This document shows positions 5,173 to 15,370 of a stretch of 64,000 nt of DNA, in pieces. Position numbers and translations under genes: made by a program. Every line of letters begins with the position of its first letter. Positions within the stretch are counted from its first letter, which is position 1. The stretch lies in contig JAPLIC010000024.1 in NCBI GenBank assembly GCA_026389315.1, positions 1 through 64,000 on the forward strand, written 5' to 3'. The notes beneath the pieces were generated by a model. That model made no database searches. It was not told the DNA's origin and was given only the letters and a program-made list of their open reading frames with translations. The DNA comes from Cyanobacteriota bacterium (GTDB taxonomy: Bacteria; Cyanobacteriota; Cyanobacteriia; PCC-6307; Cyanobiaceae).

Positions 5173-6291
5173 TCAGCGGCGGGCGTCCTCCCCTTGGGCC
5201 AGCGCCACCAGCAGGTCCGCCAGCCGCCGGTCCGCATCCCGCACCGCCAGCTGCTCCATGCCCGCGCGCAGGCTGTCGAGCGGATCGCCCCCCCCGGCCG
5301 CTCCCTGGAACGCCACCGGGGCAGCCCCCCGCAGCCGCGGCCCCAGCAGTCGCCACACGGTGCGCTCCAGGGTGGGCTCCTCCGGTGGGTGCTGGGCGAC
5401 GATCACCGCCGCCCCCAGGGCCGCCGCCGCCTCGGCGTTGGCATCCTGGTGCTTCTCAGCGGCCTGGGGGTAGGGCACCAGAATCGCCGGGGTGCCGCAG
5501 ACGGCCAGCTCGCTGAGGCTGCCGGCCCCCGCCCGGCTGATGGCCAGGTCGGCGTGCTGCAGCAGCCCCGGCAGTTCATCGCTGAAGGGACGCTCCACCA
5601 CCCCCTCCAGCCGCAGCTGACCCGCCTCCGGATCGTTGCTGCCGGTGAGATGGACCACCCGGCAGCCGGCCGCCACCAACTTCGGCAGCAGCGGCCGCAC
5701 CATGCGGTTCAACCCCACCGCCCCCTGGCTGCCTCCCATGGCCAGCACCAGGGGGCCCGCTCCGCTGGGCACCCAGTCCGGTAAGGGGGCGGGTTCGAGG
5801 AAGGCGCGGCGCACCGGCGTGCCGGTCAGCATCGGCCGGCAATGGGGCAGCCGCTCGCTGGCCTGGGGCAGACCCACCGCCACATGGGTGCAGAAGCGCC
5901 CCAACAGCCGCGTCACCTTGCCGGGGATGGCATTGCTTTCGTGCAACACCACCGGCACGCCGCACCATCGCGCCGCCAGGATCGCCGGCGCCGCAATGTA
6001 TCCACCACTGCTGAACACGGCCGCGATGCGGCGGCGGCGAATCAGGGCCCGCGCCACCCGGGTGGCATTGAGCAATTGCGCCAGATTCCAAATCTGGCGC
6101 AGACCTCGGCCCTGCAGCCCACCGGCCCGCACCGTATGCAGTGGATAGGTTTCAGGCACCAATTGCCGCTCCATGCGGTCGGGAACCCCCAGCCATTCCA
6201 CCTGCCAATCCGCCGGCAGGGCTTGCGCCACCGCCAGGGCTGGAAAGAGGTGGCCACCCGTGCCGCTGGCGGCAATCAGGAGGGTAGGCAT
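5173..6291 (-). CDS. murG: UDP-GlcNAc:undecaprenyl-PP-MurNAc-pentapeptide GlcNAc transferase
   Basis: A 372-residue GT-B glycosyltransferase that makes lipid II from lipid I on the inner face of the cytoplasmic membrane. The N-terminal loop [10 protein letters not shown] is diagnostic, and the conserved H-E-S-N-A-I-P-G-K acceptor segment is at about residue 115. The UDP-GlcNAc site appears as [13 protein letters not shown] followed by P-A-I-L-V-P-Y-P. It faces chlM tail to tail with about 55 bases between them. Start ATG 6291 gives the normal N-terminal strand. Confidence 0.92.
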
Positions 6292-6362
6292 GGGAGAAGG
6301 GCGCGCGCGCGCCTAACTTAAAAGCCGGGTTCCGGCTCCTCTGCCCACCCATCGCCGCCCCC

Positions 6363-7136
6363 ATGCCGCCCGAGATGCGCCCCGCCCGGCCCCTGTCCCG
6401 TTTCTTCGCCGCCAGGGCACTGGCCCCCCTCTTCCTGGTGCTGACGACCCCTGCCTTTGCTGGCAGCCCTTCGGCGGGGCAGTTGCAGTCCCTGGAGACG
6501 GCCCTCAACAGTCCCGACGATGGGGCCCTCAACAGCTTGCTGCAGCCAGGACCTGGCCTGGATCCACGCCAGATCCGTGCTCGCCGCCTGACCTTGCGCC
6601 AGCAATTTCCCAATGCCCGTTGGCAGGTGCTGCCCGCCTCGCCCCTGCGCGATGGCCAAGCCACGGTCACCGTGACGGTCAGCGGCACCCGGACCGCCGG
6701 GGCCACCACCTATCGGCTCCAATCCGAACAACAGCTGGCCTTGACCAGTGATGGCCAGCGCATCAACGGCCAGACCGTGCTGCGGGAGCAGTCCCTTTTG
6801 CGCAGTGGCGAGCAGTCCCCCAGCGTCACCGTGCAGATCCCGGATGTGGTGCTGACCGGCCAGCGTTACGACGTCGACGTGATCTTTGATGAACCGCTCG
6901 ATGGGGCCCTGCTCGCCGGAGGGTTGGCGCCGGTCAGCCCCGAGCAGGTCGCGACCCAGGTCAGTCCCAACCTGGAGCTCACCACCCTCTGGGGTGGCGG
7001 CTTGTTCAAGTCGGTCCAGGCCCCCCTCAGCCCCGGCTCCCAGACTTGGGCCGTGCTGCTGGTCCATCCCAAGGGGGTGATCAGCGCCTCCAAGCTGGTG
7101 CGCGTCGTTGGCGATCGCCGCGCCATGCAGCCCTAG
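6363..7136 (+). CDS. Secreted cyanobacterial protein of unknown function
   Basis: A 257-residue protein with a classical signal peptide: an Arg-rich start, a hydrophobic core (ALAPLFLVL), then T-P-A-F-A-G, suggesting cleavage near residue 33. The rest has two parts: an alpha/beta N-terminal part that resembles NTF2-like export chaperone folds by eye, and a later all-beta part with P-S-V-T-V-Q-I-P and W-A-V-L-L-V-H-P. No catalytic motif is visible. It ends three bases before the response regulator, so the three genes probably form one operon, perhaps an envelope-sensing unit. Function not assigned. Confidence 0.6.
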   Translation: MPPEMRPARPLSRFFAARALAPLFLVLTTPAFAGSPSAGQLQSLETALNSPDDGALNSLLQPGPGLDPRQIRARRLTLRQQFPNARWQVLPASPLRDGQATVTVTVSGTRTAGATTYRLQSEQQLALTSDGQRINGQTVLREQSLLRSGEQSPSVTVQIPDVVLTGQRYDVDVIFDEPLDGALLAGGLAPVSPEQVATQVSPNLELTTLWGGGLFKSVQAPLSPGSQTWAVLLVHPKGVISASKLVRVVGDRRAMQP

Positions 7137-11424: not shown

Positions 11425-11526
11425 GGGTGGTGGCTAGCCCTACCGGGCGGTTGCTGATGAGTGCTACCAGCATGGAACCGCGGCTGCGGCTGGGAATGCT
11501 GAGAGGAAAGATCCGAGAGGATGGAC

Positions 11527-12528
11527 ATGACCACACCTGAACCCCCACCTGGGCCCCCGCCTGTTGGCGCCCGTCCGCCAGGTCTGATCCAGCGGTACAG
11601 AGAGCAACTGCAGGCCCGCCATTACGCCCGCCGCACAGTGGACACCTACGAGCAATGGCTGCGGCGGTTTCTGAGGTTTCACCAGCTGCGCCATCCGCGG
11701 GAGATGGGCAGCGCGGAGGTGAATGCCTTCCTCACCCATCTGGCGGTGGAGGGTCAGGTCAGTGCCTCCACCCAGAACCAGGCCTTATCGGCGCTGCTGT
11801 TTCTGTATCGGGTGCTGCTGGAGCGGGATCTGGATCTGGAGGGGGTGGTGCGAGCCAGGCAGAAGCGACGGCTGCCCGTGGTGTTGCCCCCGGGGGAGGT
11901 GCGGGCGGTGCTGGAACGGATGGACGGCGTGGAAGCGTTGGTGAGCGAAGTGTTGTACGGCAGTGGGCTGCGATTGATGGAAGCGCTGCGGCTGCGGGTA
12001 CAGGATCTGGATTTCGAGCGCCGAGAACTGACTGTGCGTGACGGAAAGGGCAACAAGGATCGGCGGACGATGCTTCCTATAGGGGTAGGAGAGCGGTTGA
12101 GAGTGCAGCTACAGAAGGTGCGATGCCTGCACGAGAAAGACCTTGCTGAGGGGTACGGAAGTGTGCAACTACCGGGTGCGCTCCGACGTAAATACCGTGA
12201 TGCGGACAAGCAGTGGTACTGGCAGTGGGTGTTCCCCCAGTACCAGCGCTGGCGCAATAACCAAACAGGAGAGCAGGGTCGGCATCATCTCGATCCGAGC
12301 CTGGTGCAAAAGGCGATTCGCCGCGCCGTGATCGAGGCAAAGATCAGTAAGGCCGCTACCTCTCACAGCTTCCGTCATTCTTTTGCAACCCACTTACTCG
12401 AACGTGGCCATGACATCCGCACGATACAGGAATTGCTCGGCCACAACGACATCCGAACCACCATGATCTACACCCATGTGCTGAACCGTGGCCCATTCGG
12501 CATCAGCAGCCCTGCCGACAACTTGTAA
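11527..12528 (+). CDS. intI: Integron integrase
   Basis: A 333-residue tyrosine recombinase. The N-terminal SAM-like core-binding domain spans about 20-105. The catalytic domain has the first Arg in Y-G-S-G-L-R-L-M-E-A-L, the H-x-x-R pair in HSFRHSFATHLLERG, His in E-L-L-G-H-N-D, and the nucleophile Tyr in T-T-M-I-Y-T-H-V-L-N-R-G. It also has the extra segment found only in integron integrases (about 205-235), with L-H-E-K-D-L-A-E-G-Y-G, L-P-G-A-L-R-R-K-Y and W-Y-W-Q-W-V-F-P. That segment separates IntI from XerC/D. ATG 11527 has AGAGG six bases upstream; ATG 11521 is too close to it. It should catalyse cassette excision and insertion at attC and attI. Confidence 0.93.
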   Translation: MTTPEPPPGPPPVGARPPGLIQRYREQLQARHYARRTVDTYEQWLRRFLRFHQLRHPREMGSAEVNAFLTHLAVEGQVSASTQNQALSALLFLYRVLLERDLDLEGVVRARQKRRLPVVLPPGEVRAVLERMDGVEALVSEVLYGSGLRLMEALRLRVQDLDFERRELTVRDGKGNKDRRTMLPIGVGERLRVQLQKVRCLHEKDLAEGYGSVQLPGALRRKYRDADKQWYWQWVFPQYQRWRNNQTGEQGRHHLDPSLVQKAIRRAVIEAKISKAATSHSFRHSFATHLLERGHDIRTIQELLGHNDIRTTMIYTHVLNRGPFGISSPADNL

Positions 12529-12542
12529 TCCAGTGCACACTG

Positions 12543-12644
12543 TCTAGGTGGATCCGACAAAGATGGTCGGCAATTTTTCCAGTTGCCCTGCGGCTTGGGC
12601 GGACGGCCAAAGGACCCGGGGGCAACTTGGGCGGATCCACTAGA
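12543..12644. repeat. Large imperfect palindrome downstream of intI
   Basis: The outer arms TCTAGGTGGATCCG (12543-12556) and CGGATCCACTAGA (12632-12644) pair over 12 bases with one bulged G. An inner pair, CAGTTGCCC and GGGGCAACTTG, is nested inside. Such a folded structure with bulged bases recalls attC architecture, but the expected AAC/GTT triplets are not at the arm ends, so I do not call it attC. Confidence 0.6.
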
Positions 12645-12825
12645 TCGGAGTTTGAAGGATCGCAGACGAGCAATACTAACAATATTGACAGGGCTATTTT
12701 CGCGAGCTTTAAATATCGATCAAAGCGAAACCGTTTGGCTCGCTTGATAATGAGGATAAATCTTGCCAAAAACTCATTATTGCCGCCTCAGCGGCTTCTC
12801 AGCACTTTTGTAACGCCACGAACAC

Positions 12826-12849
12826 ATCTTAGGCGGATCCGCCTAAGAT
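12826..12849. repeat. Perfect 24-bp palindrome
   Basis: The sequence from 12826 to 12849 is fully self-complementary, centred on GGATCC, with the half-site ATCTTAGGCGGA. It is the most symmetric of the six TRGGCGGA copies in this region. A dimeric DNA-binding protein could recognise it, or it could be a remnant recombination site. Confidence 0.85.
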
Positions 12850-12929
12850 CCAGCTGCCTTGGTCCTTGAGCCATGAGAACCATTGTGGCGCAATGCCTCT
12901 GCTGCCGGGCAGCCGGGCGAGAGCTGCGT

Positions 12930-12976
12930 CTTAGGCGGACAGCCGAGGGCCTCGGTGCGACATAGGCGGATCCGCC
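12930..12976. repeat. Third TRGGCGGA repeat pair next to attI
   Basis: CTTAGGCGGACAGCC starts at 12930 and CATAGGCGGATCCGCC at 12961, with an inner hairpin CCGAGGGCCTCGG between them. The arrangement matches the pair at 12594-12641 (CTTGGGCGGAC ... CTTGGGCGGATCC). It ends ten bases before the attI-like GTTATAC, so it could be part of the recombination platform. Confidence 0.5.
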
Positions 12977-12985
12977 CAAATAGAA

Positions 12986-12992
12986 GTTATAC
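12986..12992 (+). other. attI-like R box, cassette insertion point
   Basis: GTTATAC at 12986-12992 is the exact complement of the R'' box GTATAAC that ends cassette 1 (13941-13947), which identifies the crossover as between G12986 and T12987. The bases in front (AATAGAA) differ from those in front of the R boxes of the attC sites (AGC, GGC), as expected for attI. A second integrase-binding box of attI was not identified. Confidence 0.75.
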
Positions 12993-13020
12993 AGTCAAAC
13001 CAACCTGACCCAAAATTGCG

Positions 13021-13932
13021 ATGCAGCCGATTCCCCTGATACATCCGATATATCTTGATGTGCCTATGCTGGTTTCATTCGCCGCAGCAGTTCAAGGTGG
13101 CCTTTCTCTTGCCTCTGAGGTTACCGAGGAGAAAAAGCGAGCTACATCTGGCTCGGGGAGCTTCTCGGCTGAATTTAGCCTCAGCAACCTCTTCAAATCC
13201 CTTTTTGATGCTGGGGCAAAGGCGAGTATCGAGGGGAGCCTCAATAGCGAGACGCAGTTAGTTCGAAAAGAGTCTCGGTCATACACGGAGGCCTCAATCG
13301 CAATTATTCTCTATCATCAGCTAAAGGCACAGACAGGCAGCATTCTTGAAGTTGCCAGCATTGGAGACATTGCAAGCTTGCAGATTGGAGCACTCGTGGA
13401 AGTACCTGGCACAATCGAGAAAAACACTATTGACTCAATTATTGATTATGCGGCGGCGATAGATATTCTAAGTAGCATGGCGGGAGATCAGACGCCAGCC
13501 CCAAATCCTCAGCAAAAAGGCAAGCAAGGATTTGCGACAGTACCAAAAAAACAGAAGAGTGATGTTGCGCGAGTTGCTGAATGCCTAGATCAAGACAGGA
13601 AGAGAACGCCTATATCAAATGTCATGCTAAGAACAAAAGACTCAACAGATTTGAATGTGATCATTTCTCTTAGAACAGCTAACCTTCGCGATCTGACTTT
13701 AAGTGAGCTACACAAGAATAATGTTAGAGTAGTCGGAAAGGTTACAAGAGTAATCCCTGAAGGAGAAGAGATGGTTTCATTTGAGAATTATGGCATGGCG
13801 ATGATCGATCAAGATGTACTATCCAACTTGTTTTCTGGAATCACGTCTGCCGATGGTTTTGCCGGTGAGCTTAGCGATTTTGTTGTAAGCGGCCCAGCGA
13901 TCCAAATCCTTCCGCTAATGATCTTTGTGTAG
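13021..13932 (+). CDS. DUF6414-like protein, integron cassette 1
   Basis: A 303-residue protein that fills the first cassette and begins 34 bases after the crossover point. The start (IYLDVPMLVSFAAAVQGGLS then S-E-V-T-E-E-K-K) resembles the N-terminus of DUF6414 proteins as I remember them, in which a soluble N-terminal part is followed by a regulatory beta region. The middle has I-G-D-I-A-S-L-Q-I-G-A-L-V-E-V-P-G, and the C-terminus I-Q-I-L-P-L-M-I-F-V is hydrophobic. Codon use is AT-rich compared with chromosomal neighbours, consistent with capture from another genome. Function unknown. Confidence 0.6.
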   Translation: MQPIPLIHPIYLDVPMLVSFAAAVQGGLSLASEVTEEKKRATSGSGSFSAEFSLSNLFKSLFDAGAKASIEGSLNSETQLVRKESRSYTEASIAIILYHQLKAQTGSILEVASIGDIASLQIGALVEVPGTIEKNTIDSIIDYAAAIDILSSMAGDQTPAPNPQQKGKQGFATVPKKQKSDVARVAECLDQDRKRTPISNVMLRTKDSTDLNVIISLRTANLRDLTLSELHKNNVRVVGKVTRVIPEGEEMVSFENYGMAMIDQDVLSNLFSGITSADGFAGELSDFVVSGPAIQILPLMIFV

Positions 13933-13940
13933 ATGCCGCT

Positions 13941-14027
13941 GTATAACACCCAGATACAGAAGACGGGAACGTGAGTGGGTTGTCAATGCGTCAAGCCTCT
14001 TCCCGCTTCTGATCTGGAGCGTTAGAA
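13941..14027 (+). other. attC site of cassette 1
   Basis: The 87-bp site runs from R'' GTATAAC to R' GTTAGAA. The arms fold: CCAGAT, CAGAAG and CGGGAA on the left (13950-13969) pair with TTCCCG, CTTCTG and ATCTGG on the right (14000-14017). Two unpaired A residues on the left arm (13956 and 13963) would be the extrahelical bases that set the strand polarity of attC. Crossover is between G14021 and T14022. Confidence 0.85.
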
Positions 14028-14160
14028 GGATGCGTCGGAGGCTGAGGGGTCAGTCCTTTCGGGGCAGAGGCGTCCGGGCTCCCTTTCACAAGCAAGGAGA
14101 CCAACTCGATGGTTTCTTGGCTAAGGTGGCATCATATGCAATGGAGATCTAAGGAAAGAA

Positions 14161-14370
14161 ATGGAAAACCTCTATGATGCTGTTGTTGAGCCTGACGGAC
14201 GAATACGGCTCAATACATCAGTACATCTCCAAAAGGGCCTCAAGGTCTTGGTCGCAGTGCCACGAAGCGACAAGGATTCTGCGTTAAGCGGAATCGCATT
14301 GAGCGAACCTTCGCTTACAGATGATTGGCTCAATCCAGATGAAGAGGAAGCATGGGCGCACCTTCAGTAG
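14161..14370 (+). CDS. Antitoxin of PemK/MazF-type toxin, integron cassette 2
   Basis: A 69-residue protein. The N-terminus (MENLYDAVVEPDGRIRL, then K-G-L-K-V-L-V-A-V-P) has the strand pattern of an AbrB/VapB-like swapped hairpin, and the acidic tail (T-D-D-W-L-N-P-D-E-E-E-A-W) is typical of the toxin-binding end of antitoxins. AAGGAAAG precedes the ATG. It overlaps the toxin gene by 19 bases. Toxin-antitoxin cassettes are known to stabilise integron arrays. Confidence 0.7.
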   Translation: MENLYDAVVEPDGRIRLNTSVHLQKGLKVLVAVPRSDKDSALSGIALSEPSLTDDWLNPDEEEAWAHLQ

Positions 14371-14705
14371 GTGATGGAGTCATCATTCCATTCCCTTATT
14401 CCGATCTGTCGCAATCCAAGCGCAGGCCCGCCCTTGTCCTTGCTGAAGCGGGCAGAGGTGATTTTCTTCTTTGTCAGATCACCAGCAAGAAATATGGTGA
14501 TTTACATGCCTTGTCCCTCAAAGAGTCGGACTTCCTCTCCGGTGGCATCAAACGAGACAGTTTTATCCCTGGCGCCAAGCTATTCACTGCCAATGAGGCT
14601 CTTATTCTTGGAGTTGCTGGACATCTGACTCATTCCAAGCTTTCAGAAGTCATTTACCAACTTATTGAAATACTGTCTGCTTGCCTGAAAGATGACACCT
14701 TCTAA
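14352..14705 (+). CDS. PemK/MazF-family endoribonuclease toxin, integron cassette 2
   Basis: A 117-residue protein with the MazF/PemK beta-barrel signature: G-D-G-V-I-I-P-F-P-Y-S-D-L, K-R-R-P-A-L-V-L-A, then L-L-C-Q-I-T-S, and F-I-P-G-A-K-L-F-T. MazF toxins cut mRNA or other RNA at short sequence motifs. The stop codon TAA lies inside the R'' box TTCTAAC of the cassette's own attC site, so the gene fills the cassette to its last base, a common economy in cassettes. Intact. Confidence 0.78.
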   Translation: MGAPSVGDGVIIPFPYSDLSQSKRRPALVLAEAGRGDFLLCQITSKKYGDLHALSLKESDFLSGGIKRDSFIPGAKLFTANEALILGVAGHLTHSKLSEVIYQLIEILSACLKDDTF

Positions 14706-14784
14706 CATCCAAATCCAGAAGACGGCAGCAATGGCTGACTTCTGTGCCGAGATTCATGACCGCCGCTGATCTTGGGCGTTGGGC
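14700..14784 (+). other. attC site of cassette 2
   Basis: This 85-bp site runs from R'' TTCTAAC to R' GTTGGGC. Its R'' is the exact complement of GTTAGAA at the start of cassette 2. The arms share sequence with the first attC (CCAGAAGACGG on the left; CTGATCT then GGGCGTT on the right). The CCAA and ATC blocks of the left arm pair with GAT and TTGG on the right, with offset unpaired bases. Crossover is between G14778 and T14779. Confidence 0.82.
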
Positions 14785-14858
14785 GGACGCTGCATAGGTA
14801 CCGCCCCCCTGTTGCTGTCCTTGATTTCCGGCTAGAATTAACAGAGGAGCTATGTCTG

Positions 14859-15167
14859 ATGTCCATGCGCATTGACGAAAAGCGAGAAGAGATTGCAGAG
14901 GCTTGCCAGCGATACGGTATAGAGCGCCTATTCATCTTTGGCTCTGCTCTCAGAGAAGACTTCAGGCCTGGGGAAAGCGATATTGATCTTCTTGTTGAGT
15001 TTGGCCCTATAGATATTTCCAAGAAATTTCATACTTACCTAGAGGCTCGTGCTGCTTTTGGCAAGATCCTTCAGGCTGAGGTTGACTTGGTAATGAGCGG
15101 AGCAGTGAAAAACAAAGTCATCGCCGGCGAGATTGATCGAACGAAGAAGCTTCTATATGGCGCGTGA
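14859..15167 (+). CDS. MNT-type nucleotidyltransferase antitoxin, integron cassette 3
   Basis: A 102-residue minimal nucleotidyltransferase. The catalytic motif is F-I-F-G-S-A-L-R-E-D-F-R-P-G-E-S-D-I-D-L-L-V with G-S and D-x-D, followed by a further Asp in A-E-V-D-L-V. In MntA-HepT pairs this enzyme AMPylates the HEPN toxin and silences it. GAGGAG lies about ten bases before ATG 14859. It overlaps the HEPN frame by 11 bases. Because the HEPN gene is broken, this is now an orphan antitoxin. Confidence 0.78.
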   Translation: MSMRIDEKREEIAEACQRYGIERLFIFGSALREDFRPGESDIDLLVEFGPIDISKKFHTYLEARAAFGKILQAEVDLVMSGAVKNKVIAGEIDRTKKLLYGA

Positions 15168-15370
15168 TCTATCCGTATATTTGCAGGATATCTATGATGC
15201 CTGCGTTGCGATTGAAGAGGTGATTGAGGGTGTCACCTTAGATGATTGTCGTGGGTGGCGTGCCATCATTGATTTCAGAAACCTTCTTGCCCATGACTAT
15301 AGGGGCAGTTGATGACGATTCGGTGTTCGGGCTTGTCCACTCGGATCTGATTGTCTTAAAGGCAGAGGTG
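15157..15370 (+). pseudogene. HEPN toxin remnant (HepT-like), deleted and frameshifted
   Basis: The frame opens as an HEPN ribonuclease (MARDLSVYLQDIYDACVAIE), runs to L-D-D, then jumps straight to W-R-A-I-I-D-F-R-N-L-L-A-H-D-Y. The central helices are missing, by comparison with full HepT proteins. After the catalytic R-N-L-L-A-H-D-Y motif a stop occurs at 15310, and the expected C-terminal sequence (V-D-D-D-S-V-F-G-L-V-H-S-D-L) continues in another frame. So there is an internal deletion plus a frameshift, and the toxin is dead. Confidence 0.75.

Follow-up and report, generated by a model that had tools for sequence, protein, structure and literature searches.

The window, the whole stretch of 64,000 nucleotides analysed here, contains a true integron cassette at 12987-14021 with a DUF6414 gene as its sole gene. 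By sequence comparison, the encoded protein falls into a stand-alone branch, separate from the phage-borne members of its family, which are encoded in a conserved three-gene operon. We tentatively suggest that the most likely single function of the window protein is that of a stand-alone accessory anti-phage protein. The integron setting of the gene is ordinary, and the more promising lead is the DUF6414 operon.

The integron and its first cassette consist of the following features.
11521-12528, forward strand: intI, the integron integrase gene, upstream of the cassettes (TIGR02249 integrase_gron, 444.8 bits, E 1.7e-133).
12529-12986, no strand assigned: the attI region from intI to cassette 1, in which GGCGGATCCGCC-type palindromes recur, read from the sequence and with attI placed to the region only.
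12986-12992, forward strand: the left core site GTTATAC, the 5' boundary of cassette 1, cut after the G (12986/12987).
12987-14021, forward strand: gene cassette 1, 1035 bp, G+C 0.465, with core sites and an attC fold.
13021-13932, forward strand: the DUF6414 gene of the stand-alone branch, an intact ATG-to-stop open reading frame of 303 aa with a full-length match to PF19952.
13941-14027, forward strand: attC1 of cassette 1, an imperfect hairpin with R'' GTATAAC and R' GTTAGAA and of an attC kind typical of the genus.

In an integrated cassette, the R' of the attC belongs to the next cassette. The left core GTTATAC and the R'' GTATAAC of attC1 (13941) are exact reverse complements (7/7), as expected if a circular cassette carrying attC1 was inserted at GTT with the cut after the G. 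As single-stranded DNA, attC1 folds far better than expected from its composition (z -4.90 vs shuffles, with 0/200 shuffles as good), and sites of its kind, CAGAAGACGGG...CCCGCTTCTGATCT..GCGTTA, also occur in the integron arrays of congeneric genomes. Relatives of IntI at E <= 1e-60 are present in 24/40 related genomes. The initial annotation had described an integron cassette filled by one gene, and both parts hold: the cassette comes with an attC of its own, core sites that match and a neighbouring IntI, and the gene accounts for 88% of the 1035 bp. The G+C content is 0.465 in cassette 1, 0.611 in intI and 0.637 in the window, and the low value of the cassette points to its acquisition from elsewhere. 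Because cassette 1 is next to attI, and from how integrons work, this attI-proximal cassette in the chromosomal integron of a picocyanobacterium is probably the one last gained. A promoter scan returned no sigma-70-like promoter upstream of it.

The several GGCGGATCCGCC-type palindromes at 12529-12986 may be part of attI or an interspersed repeat. In the classical integron layout, intI is divergent from the cassettes; intI has the same direction as the cassettes in the window (11521-14021) and in the loci L043, L048, L049, L050 and L054. Two more integron integrase genes are present in the same genome, near the starts of contigs C11 (L051) and C81 (L052), and are 75% and 64% identical to that of the window; the corresponding arrays may have been broken by the assembly. 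In integron arrays of the genus (L043:2422-6886, L049:10370-11776, L050:2837-4021 and L054:851-2778), PADLOC matched a type II methyltransferase and an AriA/PtuA-like ATPase; further proteins there, unmatched in PADLOC, resemble by eye MORC-like and other AAA ATPases, DUF4062 proteins and HNH nucleases.

The identification of 13021-13932 as a DUF6414 gene, also proposed in the initial annotation, was borne out by a Pfam search, in which PF19952 matched the window protein with 112 bits (cut-off 25; E 5.9e-32) over the whole profile (1-283/283). The window protein also has all of the family-invariant residues Y11, L12, G27, G239 and P298 (20/20 aligned members). Membership in DUF6414 is firm on the evidence of the protein sequence. 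Compared with L002-L004, the loci of its closest relatives, substitutions in the window open reading frame amount to 0.57-0.63 at codon position 3 and 0.23-0.27 at position 2; because they fall mainly at third positions, genes of the window type are maintained as coding genes in these relatives. The earlier statement that DUF6414 lacks a firm function was likewise right: the family is unmentioned in the literature searched, a search of the PDB by sequence returned no relative, and the PADLOC models gave 0 families at E up to 1 for the window protein. An identity as RuMP_HxlAB was rejected as a chance NCBIfam match (16 bits vs a cut-off of 500).

Starting from a distant cyanobacterial DUF6414 protein (P0002, from locus L009), tblastn found Vibrio phage 10N.286.54.E4_PE001, in which the DUF6414 gene lies between cI and the integrase gene, and scans of viral contigs gave 11 distinct DUF6414 loci. 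At 12/12 of the phage or viral DUF6414 loci found, as well as at L009, DUF6414 is preceded by genes for a membrane protein of ~145 aa and a small protein with one helix, usually 40-63 aa long; the membrane and one-helix character was assigned by hydropathy. This three-gene operon is located as follows.
L012:11385-12918: Vibrio phage 10N.286.54.E4_PE001.
L020-L030, about 5370-6950: prophages of several types.
L009:7374-8866: a cyanobacterial chromosome.

The profile E-values of the partners are 1e-37 to 1e-75 for the membrane protein and 4e-4 or better for the small open reading frame. The membrane protein was found in 0/291 other cyanobacterial genomes and, therefore, its linkage to DUF6414 in L009 is unlikely to be due to chance. 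Thus, the three-gene operon is firm for the phage branch. By eye, the operon is carried by P2-like prophages, by other tailed prophages and, at one locus (L029), alongside Zot-like genes of filamentous phages. The cI-integrase site of K139-like P2 prophages in Vibrionaceae is a described defence hotspot (Rousset 2022, PMC9122126), and in the Vibrio P2-like prophages the operon lies between cI and int, matching this site. There, the DUF6414 genes are found beside defence-type genes, namely those for KAP NTPases (PDC-S20, about 300 bits), an AriA-like AAA_21 ATPase, a Schlafen AlbA_2 protein and a PD-T7-4-like protein. The conserved operon appears to be a candidate defence or exclusion system of a kind not yet described. 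Compared with this arrangement, the window gene differs in that it is in an integron and is without the two operon partner genes.

Both branches match PF19952 over its full length, and the window protein shares the invariant residues of the family; however, the two branches lie far apart. The window protein is only 12-19% identical to phage-branch proteins, and hhalign aligned the two branches over 47 N-terminal columns with a probability of 1.8%, using shallow alignments. Searches for homologues of the operon membrane partner in the window, in the window's genome (assembly ~84% complete) and in those stand-alone relatives that were covered were negative, and none of the open reading frames of the window matched the 40-63-aa one-helix partner. 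As a result of the absence of the partner, use of the phage-type membrane partner by the window gene was rejected for the window's genome.

The AlphaFold2 model of the window protein, built from 14 sequences, had a pLDDT of 39 and was left out of the fold search. The model of a phage member (pLDDT 61.5, pTM 0.54) has a helical N-terminal half, followed by strands at 106-116, 200-207 and 210-217, a helix at 225-232 and strands at 239-247 and 291-302, i.e. a beta-beta-beta-alpha-beta-beta order around a helical insert. In this model, the strand order would fit an OB barrel in which strand 1 is followed by a helical insert, which is only a lead. Many of the weak Foldseek matches are OB folds, all at E > 0.8, and nothing significant was returned from PDB and BFVD (all E > 0.1).

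In the function that we propose for the window protein, DUF6414 would be soluble, its N-terminal half helical and its C-terminal half rich in beta strands and possibly OB-like, as modelled with medium confidence for a distant phage relative. It would respond to an invading phage or to phage nucleic acid, contact with nucleic acid being our guess, and this response would stop the infection, while the gene would be gained and lost via cassette shuffling. We infer this defence role by association with the phage relatives, carrying it over from the phage branch to the stand-alone branch. It is favored by the patchy distribution of DUF6414 (5/390 genomes of the class, 7/386 of the phylum and, in the genus, 1/37 genomes, namely the window's own), by the true cassette with low G+C, by the phage relatives in a hotspot beside defence-type genes and by the type II methyltransferase and AriA/PtuA-like ATPase in other integron arrays of the genus. 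By contrast, the missing PADLOC match, the distance to the phage branch, the missing partners, the location of the closest relatives outside clear defence islands and the lack of window-branch members among the phages, viral contigs and plasmids searched argue against it. The phage-defence role raised in the initial annotation is thus supported in part, and indirectly, by the relatives in the published hotspot, while those relatives are of the other branch, their partners are missing here and no PADLOC model matches. Anti-phage systems in integron cassettes have been described (Kieffer 2025 and Darracq 2025 (Science), as cited in a passage of PMC13092281). Cassette 1 resembles the cassettes of that account in consisting of one small gene and an attC of its own, downstream of an integron integrase, and it differs from them in matching no known defence system in PADLOC. 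On a broader view, DUF6414 may be the core of an undescribed anti-phage system that exists in prophages as a unit of a membrane protein, a one-helix membrane protein and DUF6414, and in cyanobacteria as a stand-alone form spreading in chromosomes and as an integron cassette; we regard this as possible, if doubtful.

The closest relatives of the window protein, in Alkalinema (L002), Tildeniella (L003) and Limnothrix (L004), are 50-57% identical to it and are encoded by single chromosomal genes outside clear defence islands, with no integron integrase seen beside them; in L003, the gene sits among core genes. No members of the window branch were found in plasmids, phages or viral contigs. Two of these three relatives have a DUF6972 gene (L002:2840-3178 and L004:6829-7236) immediately upstream of the one for stand-alone DUF6414, and a link between the two genes in L002 and L004 is possible. 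An accessory role unrelated to phages, in stress, regulation or the cell surface, with the gene being one of the many kinds that integrons collect, would be in line with defence neighbors not being common to all members of the stand-alone branch, with the position between core genes in L003, with the rarity and scatter of DUF6414 and with the many functions encoded by integron cassettes according to a passage in PMC10963911. We consider such a role somewhat unlikely; against it, phage-branch members of this Pfam family occur exclusively at accessory loci of prophages, the known defence hotspot among them.

Downstream of cassette 1, the array continues with the following features.
14022-14778, forward strand: gene cassette 2, with core sites, a 69-aa open reading frame and a PemK/MazF-like toxin gene.
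14161-14370, forward strand: the 69-aa open reading frame, upstream of the PemK/MazF-like gene; no family matched.
14352-14705, forward strand: the PemK/MazF-like toxin gene, with a marginal match to PF02452 (24.5 bits, cut-off 23.1).
14699-14784, forward strand: the degenerate attC of cassette 2, with core sequences and CAGAAGACGGC / CGCTGATCTTGGGCGTTGGGC arms.
14779-15320, forward strand: the remainder of the array, with an MntA-like nucleotidyltransferase gene and a shortened HepT-like open reading frame.
14772-15167, forward strand: the MntA-like nucleotidyltransferase gene (PF18765/PF01909; PADLOC PDC-S09, 90.5 bits).
15160-15309, forward strand: the HepT-like open reading frame, shortened to ~50 codons (22 bits, with the match limited to residues 27-48).

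The attC of cassette 2 folds no better than shuffles (z 0.32), and no third attC was recognized in 14779-15320. Downstream of the MntA/HepT-like pair the array stops and ordinary chromosomal genes begin. The HepT-like open reading frame (within 14772-15313) has lost its middle part and kept the RNLLAHDY motif, and the MntA-like gene beside it may be an antitoxin that no longer has an active toxin. Of the toxin-antitoxin cassette that the initial annotation placed next door, the PemK/MazF-like gene in cassette 2 stands, while its match is marginal and its 69-aa partner has no family. Toxin-antitoxin cassettes are frequent in integrons, and because they are so common there, this adjacency is weak evidence for a defence function of cassette 1.

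The same neighborhood bears on whether the DUF6414 gene is itself a toxin or addiction-type gene that stabilizes the array, like the adjoining MazF-like cassette. The toxin-antitoxin cassettes directly after cassette 1, the DUF6972 gene just upstream in L002 and L004, and the ParE-like, PIN or PemK-like genes near L009, L010 and L019 (L019 by eye) would agree with such a role. However, cassette 1 has a single gene without an antitoxin partner, and proximity says little given how often variable regions of cyanobacteria contain toxin-antitoxin genes; we find this explanation improbable. A superinfection-exclusion or membrane-acting factor, suggested by the constant linkage of phage-branch genes to those for the membrane and one-helix partners, is more improbable still, because it needs a membrane partner, which would have to be an unrelated one encoded elsewhere in the genome given that homologues of the phage-type partner are absent from the ~84% complete genome and the stand-alone relatives searched.

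Returning to the anti-phage reading, the DUF6414 family combines a fixed three-gene operon, present in several types of prophages and at a published defence hotspot, with a one-gene form in an integron. Of these findings, the conserved operon at prophage defence hotspots most deserves a test. If a test for defence were positive, it would provide a function for DUF6414 and add a new small defence system.
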